DNA from: Chromatiaceae bacterium
Lineage (GTDB): Bacteria > Pseudomonadota > Gammaproteobacteria > Chromatiales > Chromatiaceae
DNA length: 32,351 nt
Direction: 5' to 3'
NCBI GenBank assembly: GCA_003562815.1
Contig: PWTO01000276.1
Span: forward strand, 1-32,351
The notes beneath the pieces are model-generated. The model had not been told where the DNA came from. It was given only the letters and a program-made list of their open reading frames with translations, and searched no databases. Numbering within the stretch: the stretch's first letter is position 1; every line of letters starts with the position of its first letter. This document shows positions 2,833 to 17,276 of the stretch, piece by piece. Made by a program: the position numbers and the translations under genes.

Positions 2833-3600
2833 ATGTCAGAACCAACCGGGGCGCCGATCCGACTCGGCGTCAATATCGATCATATCGCCACCATTCGCGC
2901 CGCTCGCGGCACCCGTTACCCGGAGCCGATCCAGGCCGCGCTGGTCGCCGAGCAGGCCGGTGCCGATGCCATCACGCTGCATCTGCGCGAGGATCGGCGG
3001 CATATCCAGGATCGCGATGTGCATCTGCTGAAGGGCATTCTGCAGACGCGCATGAATCTGGAGATGGCGGCCACCCCGGAGATGGTCGAGATCGCTTGCG
3101 CCGTGCGGCCGAGCGACTGCTGCCTGGTGCCGGAGCGGCGCGAGGAGCTGACCACCGAGGGCGGACTCGATGTCGCTGGCCATATCGACATGCTCAAAGA
3201 GCAGACCGCGCGGCTCACCGACGCCGGCGTGCGCGTGTCGCTGTTCATCGACGCCGAGGCGGCGCAGCTGGAGGCCGCCGCCGAGATCGGCGCGCCGGTG
3301 GTCGAGATCCATACCGGCCGCTATGCCGACGCCCGCTCGCTGGCGGCGCGCACCGAGGAACTGCAGCGCATCGCCGAGGCGGTGGCGCGGGGACACGCGC
3401 TTGGCCTGCAGGTCAATGCCGGGCATGGGCTCGATTACCCGACTGTCGAGGCGATCGCGGCCTTGCCGGGCGTGCGTGAACTCAACATCGGTCATGCCAT
3501 CGTTGCGCGCGCGCTGTTCTCGGGGCTCGAGCGCGCGGTGGCAGAGATGAAACGTCTGATGGTGCAGGCCGCGCTCTTGGGTCAGCACGCGCGCACTTGA
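2833..3600 (+). CDS. pdxJ: Pyridoxine 5'-phosphate synthase
   Basis: Condenses 1-deoxy-D-xylulose 5-phosphate with 3-amino-2-oxopropyl phosphate to give pyridoxine 5'-phosphate, the last ring-forming step of the DXP-dependent vitamin B6 pathway, in the cytoplasm. The sequence shows the family N terminus [17 protein letters not shown], then [25 protein letters not shown], the [15 protein letters not shown] loop, EIHTGRYAD and the phosphate-binding end [11 protein letters not shown]...LNIGHAIV. The ATG at 2833 gives 255 aa, a normal length, and is preceded by AGGAA seven bases upstream; the longer ORF start at 2731 lies inside recO. It sits at the usual position after recO. Confidence 0.96.
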
Positions 3601-3740
3601 GTCGCCTGGACGGTCTTGATATCGGTGTCCGACCCCCATGGTTTCGTCGCTGTCATCGAACCAGGGTGGAAAAGGAACGCCGTTTGCTTCATGTTCTGGG
3701 ACATCCTCCGAGACATCCCGCAACCCAAGGTTTTTCGATC

Positions 3741-5336
3741 ATGACTACCACCGCAGAGTCGGCAACCCCGAGGCGCCCGGTCGTCCTGGTCATCCTCGAT
3801 GGCTTCGGCATCAACCCAAGTAAGCTCCACAATGCCATCGCCCAGGCGAGGACGCCACGGCTCGATGAATACTTCTTCCGGTATCCCTTCACGCAACTGA
3901 ACGCCTCAGGCAGTGGCGTGGGCCTGCCGACCGGACAGATGGGCAATTCCGAGGTCGGGCACATGACGCTCGGCAGCGGTAGCCTGCTGCGCCAAGACCT
4001 GGTGCTGATCGACGATGCGATCGCCGAGGGCCGTTTCTTCGAGAACGCGGCCTTGCTCGCGGCGGTCAACGCGGCCAAGGCCAAGGACCGACCTTTGCAG
4101 CTGCTCGGGCTGGTCTCCGAGGGCGGCGTACATAGCCACGTGCGCCACCTGCTGGCCCTGATCGAGCTGTGCCGGCGCGACGGCGTGACCCCATTGGTGC
4201 ACATGGTGACCGATGGGCGGGATACACCGCCGAAGTCGGTGCTCAACGGCCTCGGCGAGATCGAGGAGGCGCTCGACGGGGCGGGCGGGCGCATCGTCAC
4301 CGTCAGCGGGCGCTACTACGCGATGGATCGGGATCGGCGTTTCGACCGCACCGAACGTGCCTGGCGGGCCATCGCGCTTGGCAAGGGACGCAGCGCCCGA
4401 AGCGCACGCGCGGCGATCGATGCCGCCTATGCCGCAGGCGAGGGCGATGAATTCATCCATCCCAGCGTCATCGGCGATTGGCGGGGGCTCGAGGCCGACG
4501 ATCCAATGGTGCTGTTCAACTTCCGTAAGGATCGGCCCCGGCAGATCGCCGCCGCGCTCGCGCTCGACACCTTCGATGGCTTCGATCGGGGCCAGGCGCC
4601 GCGCGCTGCACTGACCTGCATGATGGTCTACGACAAGCGCTTTGGGCTCGCGCATGCGTTCGATCCCGAGGTGCCGGCGATCACCCTGAATCAGGTCGTC
4701 AGCGCCCAAGGGATCGAGCAGTTTCACTGCGCCGAGACCGAGAAGTATGCCCATGTCACCTTCTTCTTCAACGGTGGGCGCGAGGAGCCGGTCGCTGGCG
4801 AGGTGCATCGATTGATTCCGTCCCCGATGGTCAAGACCTATGACTTGAAGCCAGAGATGAGCGCGGTGCAGGTGGCCGATGCCGTCGTCGAGGCGATCGA
4901 GAGCGGGCGCTACGGCTTCATCGTCGTCAACTTCGCCAATGGCGATATGGTCGGCCATACCGGGTATATGGAGGCCGTGGTGCGGGCGGTCGAGGTGGTG
5001 GATCGGCAGGCCGGTCGCGTGCTGGACGCGGCCACGGCCAATGGGTATTCGGCGCTGCTGACGGCCGATCATGGCAATTGCGACATGATGCTGGACCCCG
5101 AGACGGACGCACCGCACACCCAGCATACGACCAATCCGGTGCCGTTGCTGGTGGTGGACAAGGAGCGTTGGGTGCTGCGACCGAGCGGAACCCTGGCCGA
5201 TGTCGCCCCAACGGTGCTTGAGCTGATGGGGCTGCCGGCCGCAGAGGCGATGTCCGGGCGCTCGCTGCTGTTCGAGGCCCTGGCGCCGCAGCCGAATGTC
5301 GCGCACGACCGGCTCGGGCTTGCGCGCACGGGCTAA
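3741..5336 (+). CDS. gpmI: 2,3-bisphosphoglycerate-independent phosphoglycerate mutase
   Basis: Interconverts 3- and 2-phosphoglycerate in glycolysis and gluconeogenesis using two Mn ions and a phosphoserine intermediate. The phosphatase-like domain has the metal ligand Asp in VILDGFG (about residue 20) and the catalytic Ser in GQMGNSEVGH (about residue 70). Later motifs include HMVTDGRDTPP, NFRKDRPRQI, VNFANGDMVGHTG, LTADHGNCDMM and PHTQHTTNPVP, the last ones carrying metal ligands. The ATG at 3741 gives 531 aa, a little over the common ~510, and has AAGG ten bases upstream. About 140 bp separate it from pdxJ, so it may have its own promoter. Confidence 0.95.
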   Translation: MTTTAESATPRRPVVLVILDGFGINPSKLHNAIAQARTPRLDEYFFRYPFTQLNASGSGVGLPTGQMGNSEVGHMTLGSGSLLRQDLVLIDDAIAEGRFFENAALLAAVNAAKAKDRPLQLLGLVSEGGVHSHVRHLLALIELCRRDGVTPLVHMVTDGRDTPPKSVLNGLGEIEEALDGAGGRIVTVSGRYYAMDRDRRFDRTERAWRAIALGKGRSARSARAAIDAAYAAGEGDEFIHPSVIGDWRGLEADDPMVLFNFRKDRPRQIAAALALDTFDGFDRGQAPRAALTCMMVYDKRFGLAHAFDPEVPAITLNQVVSAQGIEQFHCAETEKYAHVTFFFNGGREEPVAGEVHRLIPSPMVKTYDLKPEMSAVQVADAVVEAIESGRYGFIVVNFANGDMVGHTGYMEAVVRAVEVVDRQAGRVLDAATANGYSALLTADHGNCDMMLDPETDAPHTQHTTNPVPLLVVDKERWVLRPSGTLADVAPTVLELMGLPAAEAMSGRSLLFEALAPQPNVAHDRLGLARTG

Positions 5337-5482
5337 GTTGCTTTCAATCGGCCCGGCCCTGGCTCCTGGCTGATCGGCGCCGCTCCTGCCCCAGTGTAGG
5401 GCGTCTGCCCGCCTGTATGCGCCAGGATGATGCAGATCGGCCGGATGCTGTTGTCGTTGATCTGGAGACCCTGAGACCGTCC

Positions 5483-6730
5483 ATGCCTTCGAAGACACTC
5501 ACCTTCGTATTCGCCGCCGAGCGCGGTACGCCCGCGCCACTGACCGAACATCGCTGTAAGGCCGCAGTGCCGGTGGCCGGCAAGTATCGCGTGATCGATT
5601 TCACGCTGGCCAACTGTCTGCACTCGGGGCTGCGCCAAGTGCTGGTGCTGACACAGTACAAATCGCACTCATTACACAAGCACCTGCGCGACGGCTGGTC
5701 ACTGTTCAACGCCGAGCTGGGCGAGTTCATCACCGCCGTACCGCCGCAGATGCGCTATCACAGCGATTGGTATCGCAATGCAATGGACGCGTTGCGTCAG
5801 AACCGCTACCTGATCGAGCGCAGCCCGTCGGATAGCGTGTTGCTGCTCGATGGCGGTCTGGTCTATCGCATGGACTATGCGGAGCTGATCCGCTTTCACC
5901 GCGAGCAGGGCGGGGGCATTAGCTGCCCGCTGCGCCAGGCCGGGCCCGGCACCGCCAGCGGTGGGATGGCGGTGGAGGTCGATGCCGAGGAGCGGATCAT
6001 CGCCATGCGGCCACCGCCGGAGGCAGGCGACACCTACCGCTCGACGATGGGCGTGGTCCTGATCGACAAGACCTTGCTGCTCGAACGGCTCGAGACCCTA
6101 GCCGAAGCCGGTGAGTCTGGAATGGAAGCGGGGATGGCAGCAGGCATGGAATCGAACGTGGATCTCGTGACCCAGCTCCTGACACCGTTTCTCGATGGCC
6201 GTGCGTTCACGCCGAGCCCGCCGGTCGCCTACGGCTTTGGCGGCGAGCGCGGGCGCGTCAGTCAGGATCGGTATTGGAGCGATCTCGGGTCCACCGACGC
6301 CTACTTTCGCGCCAACATGGATCTGCTCAAGGCCGACTCGCCCTTGGATCTCTACCAGGCCGACTGGCATATCCTGACCTATCAGGGGCAGTATCCGCCG
6401 GCGCGCACCGTGCCTGGACCCAATTCGGGGAACGAGGGCATCTTCGTCAACTCGATGCTGGCGGCCGGAACCGTGATCCGTGGCGGCGGCGTCAGCCATT
6501 CGGTGCTCTATCCGCGGGTGCAGGTCGAGGACAGCGCGATCGTCGACGAGGCGATTCTGTTCGAGGGTGTGCGAGTGGGGGCCAATGCGCGCATCAGGCG
6601 CTGTATTTGCGACAAGGAGGTGGTGATCCCGGCGGGAGCCGTGATCGGCGAGGATCGCCGCGCCGATGCCGAGCGCTTCGCAGTCTCCGACGAGGGCATC
6701 GTGGTGATCCGCAAGGGGCAGTCGCTCTGA
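5483..6730 (+). CDS. GlgC-family protein (ADP-glucose pyrophosphorylase-like) with degenerate active site
   Basis: Clearly a GlgC homologue by length (415 aa) and by blocks such as GKYRVIDFTLANC, TQYKSHSLHKHL, YWSDLGSTDAYFRANMDLL and a C-terminal left-handed beta-helix ending in DEGIVVIRKGQ. GlgC makes ADP-glucose from ATP and glucose-1-phosphate for glycogen synthesis. Here the nucleotide loop, normally GGRGTRL, reads AERGTPA. The AGDHIYKMDY block with the catalytic Asp reads DGGLVYRMDY, so that Asp is Gly. The Glu-Lys-Pro motif that binds glucose-1-phosphate reads MRPPP. The Asp of YWxDxG remains. This pattern resembles non-catalytic partners (Firmicutes GlgD, plant large subunits), so a regulatory role is inferred. 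No glgA/B neighbours. An upstream ATG at 5417 is possible; 5483 places the start just before the domain. Confidence 0.8.
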   Translation: MPSKTLTFVFAAERGTPAPLTEHRCKAAVPVAGKYRVIDFTLANCLHSGLRQVLVLTQYKSHSLHKHLRDGWSLFNAELGEFITAVPPQMRYHSDWYRNAMDALRQNRYLIERSPSDSVLLLDGGLVYRMDYAELIRFHREQGGGISCPLRQAGPGTASGGMAVEVDAEERIIAMRPPPEAGDTYRSTMGVVLIDKTLLLERLETLAEAGESGMEAGMAAGMESNVDLVTQLLTPFLDGRAFTPSPPVAYGFGGERGRVSQDRYWSDLGSTDAYFRANMDLLKADSPLDLYQADWHILTYQGQYPPARTVPGPNSGNEGIFVNSMLAAGTVIRGGGVSHSVLYPRVQVEDSAIVDEAILFEGVRVGANARIRRCICDKEVVIPAGAVIGEDRRADAERFAVSDEGIVVIRKGQSL

Positions 6731-6754
6731 GCCGCGTGCGCACGCGCGCAGATT

Positions 6755-7681
6755 TCAGAAGCGGCAGATGGTCTCGCCGCCGTGCTCGATCCAGCCGTGG
6801 ATCATCTTCTTGGTCGTCATGCCGCTGGCGCAGTGGCCGGTGCGATCGATGCAGATGAGCCCACCGCGACCCTGGACCTTACGGCTGAGATAGGCGAGGC
6901 CGTCATCGACCGCAGAGCGCGCATTACCGCCACAGAGTTCGATCAGGTCCGCGACCGTCTTGGCGAAGACAGTGCGCATGAAGTCTTCGCCGTAGCCGGT
7001 CGCGGAGACCGCGCAGCTGTCATTGTCGGCATAGACGCCAGCGCCGATGATCGGTGAATCACCGACGCGGCCCATGCGTTTGTTGACAATGCCGCCGGTT
7101 GAAGTGGCTGCGGCCAGATGGCCCTGGCGGTCGCGCGCGACAGCGCCGATGGTGCCGTATTTCTGATCTTCGCCCTCGTCGTCATGGTCGAGCGTCATCC
7201 GCCCGCGCAGGCGCGCCTGCTCCAGTTGCTTGATCCGATCGGGGGTGAAGAAGTAGTGATCAGGCGTCAAACGCACCTGGCAATGCTTGGCGAACTGCAG
7301 CGCGCCGTCGCCGATCAGCATCACATGCTCGCTGCCATCCATGATCAGCCGCGCCAACTGCACCGGGTTGGCGATGTTGCCGATGCCGGCGACAGCGCCG
7401 GCGGAGAGATCGCGTCCGTCCATGATCCCGGCATCCATCTCGACCTTGCCGTTCTCGTTCAGCACCGAGCCGCAGCCGGCATTGAAGAGCGGATCATCCT
7501 CGAGCTGCGAGGCGCAGCTCTCGACCGCCTCGACCGCGCTCGCGCCGCGTTCGAGGATGGCGCGCCCGTGCTCGAGGATCACACGGATGCTCTCGAGGTA
7601 GCGTACGGCGGTGCGCTCATCGGCGACGTTGTCGAGCGCGCCCGCGCCGCCGTGGATCATCAGGGAATAGGTATCGGTCAT
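6755..7681 (-). CDS. Isoaspartyl peptidase / plant-type L-asparaginase (Ntn hydrolase)
   Basis: 308-aa N-terminal-nucleophile hydrolase of the IaaA/plant-type asparaginase family, made as a precursor that cuts itself before a Thr which becomes the nucleophile. The N terminus has MIHGGAGA, then NAGCGSVLNENGKVEMDAGIMDG, and the autocleavage site KYGTIGAVARD with Thr at about residue 177 (the usual His or Gly before it is Tyr-Gly here). After the nucleophile come STGGIVNKRMGRVGDSPIIGAG and SATGYGEDFMR, which shape the beta-aspartyl pocket. Family members hydrolyse beta-aspartyl dipeptides, including those released from cyanophycin. It starts 13 nt after the ATP-grasp gene on the same strand, so the two are probably co-transcribed. 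A purine-rich GAGAGAG precedes the ATG. Confidence 0.9.
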   Translation of the reverse strand: MTDTYSLMIHGGAGALDNVADERTAVRYLESIRVILEHGRAILERGASAVEAVESCASQLEDDPLFNAGCGSVLNENGKVEMDAGIMDGRDLSAGAVAGIGNIANPVQLARLIMDGSEHVMLIGDGALQFAKHCQVRLTPDHYFFTPDRIKQLEQARLRGRMTLDHDDEGEDQKYGTIGAVARDRQGHLAAATSTGGIVNKRMGRVGDSPIIGAGVYADNDSCAVSATGYGEDFMRTVFAKTVADLIELCGGNARSAVDDGLAYLSRKVQGRGGLICIDRTGHCASGMTTKKMIHGWIEHGGETICRF

Positions 7682-14101: not shown

Positions 14102-14241
14102 GTCGTTCGGGCGGGGTAAGGCGCTGCCACAAAAAACCTTATCAGTCCATAAAGGATTTCAACCGATAGGGCTCACTACTCGGGCGTCTAAAGAATTAGA
14201 ATATAACGTCATTCTCCCCGAGGCCAGACGAACCAACGCCC

Positions 14242-17148
14242 ATGAAAGACCCTGCCGTGCAACACGATGCCGAGATCGGCCAGACCGAGGTCAAAGAGAC
14301 CACTTGTTACATGTGCGCTTGCCGCTGCGGTATTCGCGTGCACCTGCGCGATGGCCAGGTTCGCTACATCGAAGGCAACCCGAACCATCCGCTGAACAAG
14401 GGCATCCTCTGCGCCAAAGGCTCCTCCGGCATCATGAAGCAGGTCTCGCCGGCGCGCCTGACCAAGCCGCTGCGCCGCAAGGCCAACGCCAAGCGCGGCG
14501 AGTCGCAGTTCGAGGAGATCTCCTGGGACGAAGCGCTGACGATGCTCAGCGAGCGGCTCGGCCATCTGCGCGCGACCGACCCAAAGAAGTTCGCGCTGTT
14601 CACCGGACGCGACCAGATGCAGGCGCTCACCGGCATGTTCGCCAAGCAATTCGGCACCCCGAATTACGCCGCACATGGTGGCTTCTGCTCGGTGAACATG
14701 GCCACCGGCATGATCTACTCGATCGGCGGCTCGTTCTGGGAGTTTGGCGGGCCGGACCTCGATCGCGCCAAGCTCTTCATCATGATCGGCACCGCCGAGG
14801 ACCATCATTCGAATCCGCTGAAGATGGCGCTCTCGAAGTTCAAGCGCGAGGGCGGGCGCTTCATCGCCATCAATCCGGTGCGCTCCGGCTATGGCGCGAT
14901 CGCCGATGAATGGGTGCCGATCAAGCCTGGCACCGACGGTGCGCTGTTCCTGGCCCTGACCCATGAGATTCTCAAGCTTGGCCTGTTCGATCGCGACTTC
15001 CTGATCCAGTACACCAATGCCGCCGAGCTGGTGATCGACGACCCCGCGCGTGACGATCACGGCATGTTCGTGCGTGACGAGAGCATCGATGTCACCCGCG
15101 GCTGTACCGATCCGCAGGACAAGTTCTGGTGGGATCGCAACCGGGGCGCGGTGCTGACCCATAGCGAGGGCGCCGATCCGCGCTTGCTCGGAGGCTACAC
15201 CATGCCCGATGGCACGCCGGTGAAGACCTCGTTCCAGCTGCTGAAGGAGCGGGTCGAGCCCTATACCCCGGAGTGGGCCGAGAGCATCACCGGGATTGCG
15301 GCCGCGACCATTCGGCGCCTCGCCCATGAGATGGGCGTGATGGCGCGCGATCATAAGATCGAGCTGCCGATCAACTGGACCGACGCCTGGGACAAGGAGC
15401 ACGACCGCGTCACCGGCAATCCGGTCGCCTTCCATGCGATGCGCGGCCTGGCGGCGCACTCCAACGGTTTCCAGACCATTCGCGCGCTCAGCATCCTGAT
15501 GACGGTGCTCGGTACCATCGATCGCCCCGGCGGCTTTCGCCACAAGGCCCCGTTCCCGAAGCCGATCCCACCCTGCCCGAAGCCGCCCCACAGCCCGGAT
15601 GCGGTGCAGCCGAACACCCCGCTCGACGGATTGCCACTGGGCTGGCCGGGCCGGCCCGAGGATCTGTTCGTCGACGACAACGGCGAGCCGGTGCGCATCG
15701 ACAAGGCCTTCTCCTGGGAGTATCCGCTCGCGGCCCATGGCCTGATGCACAATGTCATCACCAATGCCTGGCGCGGCGATCCCTATCGCATCGACACCCT
15801 GTTCCTGTTCATGGCCAACATGGCCTGGAACTCGGCGATGAACACGGTCGAGACGCGCAACATGCTCACCGACCGGGACGAGAACGGCGAGTACAAGATC
15901 CCGTTCCTGGTGGTATGCGACACCTTCGCCTCGGAGACCGTCGCCTTCGCCGATCTGGTGCTGCCCGATACCACCTATCTGGAGCGCCACGATGTGCTCT
16001 CGATGCTCGATCGGCCGATCTCCGAGTTCGATGGGCCAGTGGATTCGGTGCGACTGCCGGTGCTGCCGCCGAAAGGCGAATGCCGTCCGTTCCAGGATGT
16101 GCTGATCGAACTTGGTGCCCGCCTTAACCTGCCTGCGTTCACCAACCAGGATGGCTCGGCGAAGTACAAGAATTACCCGGACTTCGTGGTCAACTATGAA
16201 ACCTCGCCGGGCTCCGGGATCGGCTTCCTCGCCGGCTATCGCGGCAAGCATGGCGACAAGTCCCTGAAGGGCGAGCCGAATCCGAACCAATGGGAGCAGT
16301 ACGCAGCCAATCACTGCGTCTTCCACCATGAGCTGCCGCGCAGCTACCAGTACATGCGCAACTGGAACAAGGGCTATTTGCACTGGGCGCGCGCGCATGG
16401 AATGACGCGCTGGGCCGAGCCGATCACCCTGCACCTCTACTCCGAGGTGCTGCAGCGCTTCCGCGCCGCAGCCCAGGGTAAATGGCCTGGACGCCAGCCG
16501 CCGGAGCGTTATCGCAAGCGCATCGAGACCTTCTTCGATCCGCTGCCGTTTTACTACGATCCGCTCGAGACGCAGCGTGTCGATACCAAACGCTTCCCGC
16601 TCACCGCGCTGACCCAGCGGCCGATGGCGATGTACCACAGCTGGGATAGCCAGAATGCCTGGCTGCGCCAGATCCACAGCCACAACTACCTGTTCGTGAA
16701 TCCGAAGATGGCGATTGCGCAGGACATCAAGGACGGTGACTGGATCTGGGTCGAATCGCACCTCGGCAAGGTCAAGTGCATGTGCCGCTATTCCGAGGCG
16801 GTCGAACCCAGCACGGTCTGGACCTGGAACGCCATCGGCAAGGGGGCCGGCGCCTGGGGCCTGAGCGCAAAGGCGGACGAATCGAAGAAGGGCTTTTTGC
16901 TCAACCACATCATCAGCGAGGAGCTGCCGGTGGTGAGCGCCGATGGCAAGCAGGTTCTCTCCAATTCCGACCCGCTCACCGGACAGGCGGCCTGGTTCGA
17001 TACGCGGGTGCGCATCTACAAGGCCGAGGCGCGCGAAGCGCGGGTCACCGAGCCGCAGTTCCCGCCGATGAAGACGCTGCCGGGCCAGCTCGCGCGCCCG
17101 AAGCAGCGTTGGCAGGCCTATGTGGCCGGTCTCTTTGGCCGTCGATAG
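14242..17148 (+). CDS. soeA: Sulfite:quinone oxidoreductase, molybdopterin subunit SoeA
   Basis: 968-aa catalytic subunit of the DMSO-reductase family. SoeABC oxidises sulfite directly to sulfate in the cytoplasm and passes electrons to the quinone pool in purple sulfur bacteria. An N-terminal [4Fe-4S] motif is C-x2-C-x3-C-x27-C (Cys 22, 25, 29, 57). There is no twin-arginine signal, agreeing with a cytoplasmic site. A likely Mo-ligating Cys is in GGFCSVNMATG (about residue 149). Later come SKFKREGGRFIAINPVRSGYG, ADLVLPDTTYLERHD and the C-terminal molybdopterin-binding domain (SQNAWLRQIHSHNYLFVNP). The soeB and soeC types that follow fix the assignment; polysulfide/thiosulfate reductase is the family alternative. 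A 140-bp AT-richer leader precedes it. Confidence 0.88.
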   Translation: MKDPAVQHDAEIGQTEVKETTCYMCACRCGIRVHLRDGQVRYIEGNPNHPLNKGILCAKGSSGIMKQVSPARLTKPLRRKANAKRGESQFEEISWDEALTMLSERLGHLRATDPKKFALFTGRDQMQALTGMFAKQFGTPNYAAHGGFCSVNMATGMIYSIGGSFWEFGGPDLDRAKLFIMIGTAEDHHSNPLKMALSKFKREGGRFIAINPVRSGYGAIADEWVPIKPGTDGALFLALTHEILKLGLFDRDFLIQYTNAAELVIDDPARDDHGMFVRDESIDVTRGCTDPQDKFWWDRNRGAVLTHSEGADPRLLGGYTMPDGTPVKTSFQLLKERVEPYTPEWAESITGIAAATIRRLAHEMGVMARDHKIELPINWTDAWDKEHDRVTGNPVAFHAMRGLAAHSNGFQTIRALSILMTVLGTIDRPGGFRHKAPFPKPIPPCPKPPHSPDAVQPNTPLDGLPLGWPGRPEDLFVDDNGEPVRIDKAFSWEYPLAAHGLMHNVITNAWRGDPYRIDTLFLFMANMAWNSAMNTVETRNMLTDRDENGEYKIPFLVVCDTFASETVAFADLVLPDTTYLERHDVLSMLDRPISEFDGPVDSVRLPVLPPKGECRPFQDVLIELGARLNLPAFTNQDGSAKYKNYPDFVVNYETSPGSGIGFLAGYRGKHGDKSLKGEPNPNQWEQYAANHCVFHHELPRSYQYMRNWNKGYLHWARAHGMTRWAEPITLHLYSEVLQRFRAAAQGKWPGRQPPERYRKRIETFFDPLPFYYDPLETQRVDTKRFPLTALTQRPMAMYHSWDSQNAWLRQIHSHNYLFVNPKMAIAQDIKDGDWIWVESHLGKVKCMCRYSEAVEPSTVWTWNAIGKGAGAWGLSAKADESKKGFLLNHIISEELPVVSADGKQVLSNSDPLTGQAAWFDTRVRIYKAEAREARVTEPQFPPMKTLPGQLARPKQRWQAYVAGLFGRR

Positions 17149-17276
17149 CCCACGGTGGCCGGCGTCGAGGCGTCGGCCGCTCAATCACACTCGAAACGCG
17201 CGCGGCCCGCATCAACACTGGCCGGCGCGTGCGCCGACTTCAATGCCTCCGGGCCCGCATGACCCGCGATAGACCC

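Follow-up and report, generated by a model that had tools for sequence, protein, structure and literature searches.

The gene at nt 5483–6730 of the window (the whole stretch of 32,351 nucleotides analyzed, contig C314 of a 3.2-Mb, 95.5% complete draft genome of a Chromatiaceae bacterium) encodes a GlgC homologue that is almost certainly a conserved pseudoenzyme whose effector site is intact. As read from its sequence, the active site is destroyed and the control pocket is kept, and the protein is probably an evolved regulator, not an enzyme. Its nearest named relative is the protein of Halochromatium salexigens, with 95% amino acid identity. The features concerned are:

3597–5336, plus strand: gpmI (2,3-BPG-independent phosphoglycerate mutase), the upstream neighbour, outside the proposed mechanism
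5483–6730, plus strand: non-catalytic GlgC paralogue, 415 residues plus stop (translation, Pfam PF00483 and PF24894, fold)
5513–5536, plus strand: degenerate G-rich nucleotide loop AAERGTPA, E. coli A26–L33 (alignment; pLDDT below 50 at residues 15–19 and 21–23)
5849–5878, plus strand: DGGLVYRMDY, E. coli AGDHIYKQDY (alignment); catalytic Asp142 replaced by Gly125, D148-equivalent Asp131 kept
6002–6022, plus strand: AMRPPPE, E. coli FVEKP region (alignment); EKP glucose-1-phosphate motif E194-K195-P196 lost
6272–6289, plus strand: YWSDLG, E. coli YWRDVG; second metal-binding Asp, D276, kept, 100% in the clade
6395–6709, plus strand: left-handed beta-helix at the C-terminus (matches PF24894), better conserved than the N-domain

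Loss of the active site

The initial annotation had taken this frame for a GlgC homologue without the G-rich loop, the catalytic Asp, and the EKP motif, but with YWxD. The coordinates are correct, and every motif it named is confirmed against E. coli GlgC. An in-frame ATG is also present at nt 5417, yet the orthologue alignment begins at nt 5483. Both GlgC-type domains, PF00483 (NTP_transferase) and PF24894 (C-terminal hexapeptide), are present.

The change from AGGRGTRL in E. coli GlgC to AAERGTPA removes G27, G28, and R32. T117, A118, H143, G179, S212, and the SHDFG region are lost as well, and among the catalytic residues R32, D142, E194-K195, and D276, D276 alone is kept. Across the 58 aligned members of the window clade the per-site losses are at or near fixation, with R32, K195, T117, and A118 retained in 0% and D142 and E194 in 5%, while K42, W274, and D276 are retained in 100%. 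The sequence is continuous on either side of each site, indicating that the catalytic residues were replaced and not displaced; the alignment at R32, D142, and K195 that had been proposed as a check likewise finds them missing, not shifted. Since it lacks an ATP loop, the metal-binding catalytic Asp, and a glucose-1-phosphate site, the protein is predicted to be unable to make ADP-glucose. The protein scores 260.9 bits with the GlgC model TIGR02091 (cutoff 424.9) and 339.2 bits with PRK00725 (cutoff 470). The TIGR02091 cutoff is a weak criterion, since some clearly intact GlgC proteins of class A, described below, also fall just under 424.9.

The complete retention of D276, K42, and W274 could mean that the protein is still an enzyme, using these residues for a different chemistry or sugar phosphate. 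Three early-branching or parallel relatives (L210, L138, and L139) lack EKP and keep R32, D142, and D276, which would allow a changed sugar specificity there. In the window clade, however, the nucleotide loop, R32, D142, H143, T117, and A118 have given way to variable residues with retention of 0–7%, and no new conserved polar set has taken the place of the lost residues. An altered enzyme is therefore improbable. Separate EKP losses in the same GlgC lineage (lineage C, see below) were observed in L138 (G007), L139 (G110), L141/L204 (G046, G086), L089/L096/L100, and L254. These cases, some with D142 and R32 intact, possibly represent changed sugar specificity or early pseudoenzymes.

Retention of the effector cleft and descent of the gene

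The fold is retained, as the initial annotation had held. An AlphaFold2 model from 53 sequences has a mean pLDDT of 84 and a pTM of 0.85, and the segments with pLDDT below 50 are the former nucleotide loop and residues 221–224. The best Foldseek matches are E. coli AGPase, with TM 0.82–0.84; among the PDB entries the AMP complex of E. coli AGPase ranks first, its FBP complex second, and the A. tumefaciens enzyme third.

Site retention was compared, with permutation over sites, in the 171 columns that are conserved among catalytic lineage-C proteins. The cleft and relay set comprises R40, R52, Q74, T79, R107, W113, Y114, R130, and R386 (E. coli numbering, lineage-C residues). The lists of functional residues were compiled in the course of the analysis, not preset, and come partly from general knowledge of E. 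coli AGPase. Active-site columns have a mean retention of 0.23 in the clade against 0.76 overall (p < 2e-5), K42, W274, and D276 being the exceptions, and the effector-cleft and relay columns have a retention of 0.998 against the same 0.76 (p = 0.0015); both p-values are comparisons among sites only, because the rows are related. Catalytic residues lost with effector site and relay kept is the pattern of a modulatory subunit. The beta-helix (residues 300 and above) is retained at 0.88 and the N-domain at 0.72.

Q74, W113, R130, and the interface Asp (D148) are 100% invariant in the clade. Q74 and W113 are required for the activation relay in E. coli AGPase (PMC3691274), and R130 stacks on AMP in the cleft of the neighbouring protomer (PMC11046441). 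In the A. tumefaciens AGPase, D141 makes a contact between subunits on which allosteric signalling depends (PMC10461462). The equivalent position is D148 in E. coli and Asp131 in the inactive GlgC. The activator lysine K39 is mostly His or Gln in the clade, and Asp or Glu in most of catalytic lineage C.

Orthologues were found in 52 of the 146 sampled genomes of the family, and they form a single clade in the tree with support 100/100. The named hosts are Halochromatium, Lamprobacter, Thiohalocapsa, Thiospirillum, Thiocapsa, Chromatium, Allochromatium, Thiorhodococcus, Thiobaca, Imhoffiella, and Thiodictyon. The dN/dS is 0.05–0.14 within Halochromatium/Lamprobacter, and 0.13–0.56 in wider pairs, where dS is near saturation. 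The low ratios indicate that the inactive glgC is under purifying selection.

Three of the 52 orthologues are in pieces. Single orthologues (G026:C45, L081, and L122; hosts Thiocystis minor, Chromatium okenii LaCa, and a g26 genome) have an internal stop, a frameshift, or an interruption, for which sequencing error and recent loss are both possible. They are what would be expected of a decaying pseudogene or an assembly artefact. Nearly all orthologues, however, are full-length with intact frames, the 95% identical H. salexigens gene comes from a separate assembly, and the low dN/dS rules out a pseudogene; we regard decay or artefact as very improbable.

The window clade is nested in lineage C, a third GlgC lineage, which is catalytic. 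The full catalytic set is present in lineage-C members from Holophagaceae, Methylococcaceae, and many other Gammaproteobacteria. In the basal relative L210, EKP is missing while R32, D142, and D276 are still there, suggesting that the glucose-1-phosphate site was the first to be lost. In the Holophagaceae contig L086 (3845–5700), the start of a second, intact-looking glgC lies about 300 bases downstream of an intact lineage-C glgC; the two are a possible natural two-subunit pair.

Among 369 genomes surveyed across the class, 36 carry a close lineage-C relative. The reduced tree requires at least seven changes at K195, at least four at D142 and as many at R32, and at least three at D276, and a single origin of the catalytic and K195 losses is rejected (p-AU 1.8e-25). 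The best tree separates the window clade from a second degenerate clade (L245, L251, L253, L255, L258, L261, and L265–L267); grouping the two as one is compatible with the data (p-AU 0.14). W113 is lost in the second clade and R130 in three of its members, so these proteins may work unlike the window protein. The loci of the clade are L272–L280, in G302, G190, G170, G232, G282, G502, G374, G253, and G474. In most of these genomes rng and/or yhdP adjoin the gene, and in six a glcD-like FAD-linked oxidase gene lies immediately downstream, overlapping or about 40 bases away at most.

Catalytic GlgC proteins and the proposed role

A search for a second, canonical glgC had been proposed; absence of such a gene, together with measurable ADP-glucose synthesis by this protein, was to count against a regulatory role. 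The genome of the window holds an intact canonical GlgC on contig C111 (419 residues, AGGQGSRL/GADHIY/QEKP/YWRDVG), a second GlgC, E. coli-like (GGRGARL), of which the end of contig C145 carries the first ~90 residues, and three GlgA homologues. A second glgC is thus present, and the reading as a regulatory subunit stands in part: the protein is non-catalytic with its fold kept, a catalytic glgC lies elsewhere, and the site conservation fits; the likeness to GlgD and plant subunits holds by analogy only.

Two catalytic classes co-occur with the inactive gene, class A (C111 type) and class B (E. coli-like). Class A and/or B is found in 52/52 genomes with the inactive gene and in 81/94 without it (p = 0.004, uncorrected for phylogeny). 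A candidate catalytic partner, as expected for a modulatory subunit, is present in the same genome: C111 here, and class A and/or B in all 52. Class A occurs in 51/52 genomes with the pseudoenzyme against 13/94 without, a strong association that follows phylogeny. Class B occurs in 47 of the 52, or 48 with the fragment in the genome of the window, in a tally that scores three genomes without a match (identity not given) as positive. Within the 52, G105, G028, G076, and G004 gave no class B match and G022 no class A match. The sole other GlgC found is of class A in G105, whose genome is a single contig, and of class B in G022. A division of labour between the pseudoenzyme and a class A enzyme with a lost cleft was considered and found unsupported: the class A cleft residues are unusual in relatives without the pseudoenzyme, too, and so predate it. 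In the Thiohalocapsa-type genome G038, a second class A copy (L172) reads AGGEGAGL, with R32 changed to Gly and K42 to Thr. It is another loss, apparently recent, in a different GlgC class.

The gene order around the inactive glgC is rnc-era-recO-pdxJ-[gpmI]-inactive glgC-endonuclease III-like. Since these are housekeeping genes, and gpmI lies upstream only in the Halochromatium/Thiohalocapsa group, the operon gives no clue to the role. No glg genes were seen beside it in the neighbourhoods of the window and its relatives, and the GlgD-type placement in a glg operon is not found. The endonuclease III-like gene, downstream in many relatives including H. salexigens, was not seen at nt 6731–6755 of the window; an asparaginase gene on the opposite strand directly follows the inactive glgC. 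Elsewhere in the window, long frames of 991 and 968 residues overlap almost fully on opposite strands (14209–17184, minus; 14242–17148, plus); the minus-strand frame has no NCBIfam match.

The best single explanation, which we favour by a little, is that the protein is a non-catalytic AGPase subunit that binds an effector and evolved independently. The pseudoenzyme derives from catalytic lineage C; its AGPase fold is kept, as are the Gln/Trp relay and the effector cleft that lies between the beta-helix and the catalytic domain. It probably co-assembles with a catalytic GlgC of the same cell, class A (C111) or class B, and binds a phosphorylated effector. Within such a mixed tetramer it would set the activity or the effector response, and so might regulate glycogen synthesis. 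Counting against such a subunit are the neighbourhood without glg genes, the inconsistent partner class, the His or Gln at K39, and the persistence of degenerate lineage-C relatives in genomes without another GlgC or GlgA.

This last observation concerns the second degenerate clade. Its protein is the sole GlgC homologue in G302 (98% complete), G170 (75%), G232 (78%), and G190 (93%). GlgA is undetectable in G302, G170, and G232, and G190 has a weak sub-cutoff match only. In G302, G170, and G232 the protein is thus not a subunit of a catalytic AGPase, and these cases do demonstrate that degenerate lineage-C proteins can persist in genomes that offer no AGPase partner. A partner-free role is accordingly a live alternative for the window protein: as a stand-alone sensor or scaffold, its cleft and beta-helix would bind a phosphorylated metabolite and act on another target. 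Selection would already have acted on this second function, so that catalysis could be lost time after time. The K195 changes, at least seven and independent within one lineage, the better conservation of the beta-helix, and the missing glg neighbourhood all agree with this role. However, the partner-free cases belong to the other, more degenerate clade with its damaged relay, three of the four genomes are incomplete, and a catalytic GlgC is kept in all 52 Chromatiaceae-type genomes. We consider the stand-alone role rather unlikely for the window protein, and the AGPase subunit remains the preferred reading.

A wider proposal can be offered tentatively. One gammaproteobacterial GlgC lineage may have, besides catalysis, a second role in effector sensing through which catalysis repeatedly became dispensable, and the resulting AGPase-derived metabolite sensors may outlive glycogen synthesis in some genomes.

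Comparison with known systems

Our search of a literature collection found no publication on this protein. Two glgC genes are listed for Allochromatium vinosum (PMC4301808), and the portion of that source consulted carries no remark on their catalysis. The proteobacterial AGPase is described as a homotetramer with one subunit type (PMC9093745; PMC11046441). So far, evolved inactive regulators of this kind have been reported only outside the purple sulfur bacteria, in plants and in other groups of bacteria. Many purple sulfur genera conserve such an inactive paralogue with its cleft intact, which implies that glycogen regulation in these phototrophs may have been attributed to an enzyme that was incomplete. 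Recurrent loss of catalysis provides a natural series for the transition from allosteric enzyme to regulator, comparable with and independent of plant large subunits and GlgD, and at least one branch of it apparently starts at the glucose-1-phosphate site.

E. coli GalF is a low-activity GalU paralogue once proposed to be a regulatory subunit, and it likewise was inactivated after duplication by loss of catalytic residues (PMC4643126). It differs in being a paralogue of UDP-glucose pyrophosphorylase and a monomer without effector cleft or beta-helix. Canonical E. coli GlgC (PDB 5L6S/5L6V) shares the fold, the effector cleft, and ~34% identity with the window protein. Unlike canonical proteobacterial GlgC, the window protein has lost the catalytic residues and falls under every curated GlgC cutoff.

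GlgD of Firmicutes is also an inactive GlgC paralogue alongside a catalytic GlgC. Its modulatory role was shown in Lactobacillales and Clostridiales, and Proteobacteria are said to lack it (PMC9093745). GlgD is encoded in the glg operon, whereas the window gene lies outside any. Membership in GlgD was rejected: the protein scores 138.9 bits with TIGR02092 (cutoff 236.6) and far better with the GlgC models. Descent speaks against membership as well, since the inactive GlgC arose in a gammaproteobacterial/Holophagaceae GlgC lineage, as placed in a tree of GlgC without GlgD sequences.

The plant AGPase large subunit is likewise a duplicated subunit with fold, effector sites, and relay residues kept. 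It acts in a heterotetramer, and in some cases its catalysis is weakened or lost (PMC6218581, PMC3691274). Its origin is separate, and the window protein differs in having no nucleotide loop, D142, or EKP, and in that its heteromer is a putative one. By analogy, the inactive GlgC would work like GlgD and the plant large subunits while being a member of neither family.
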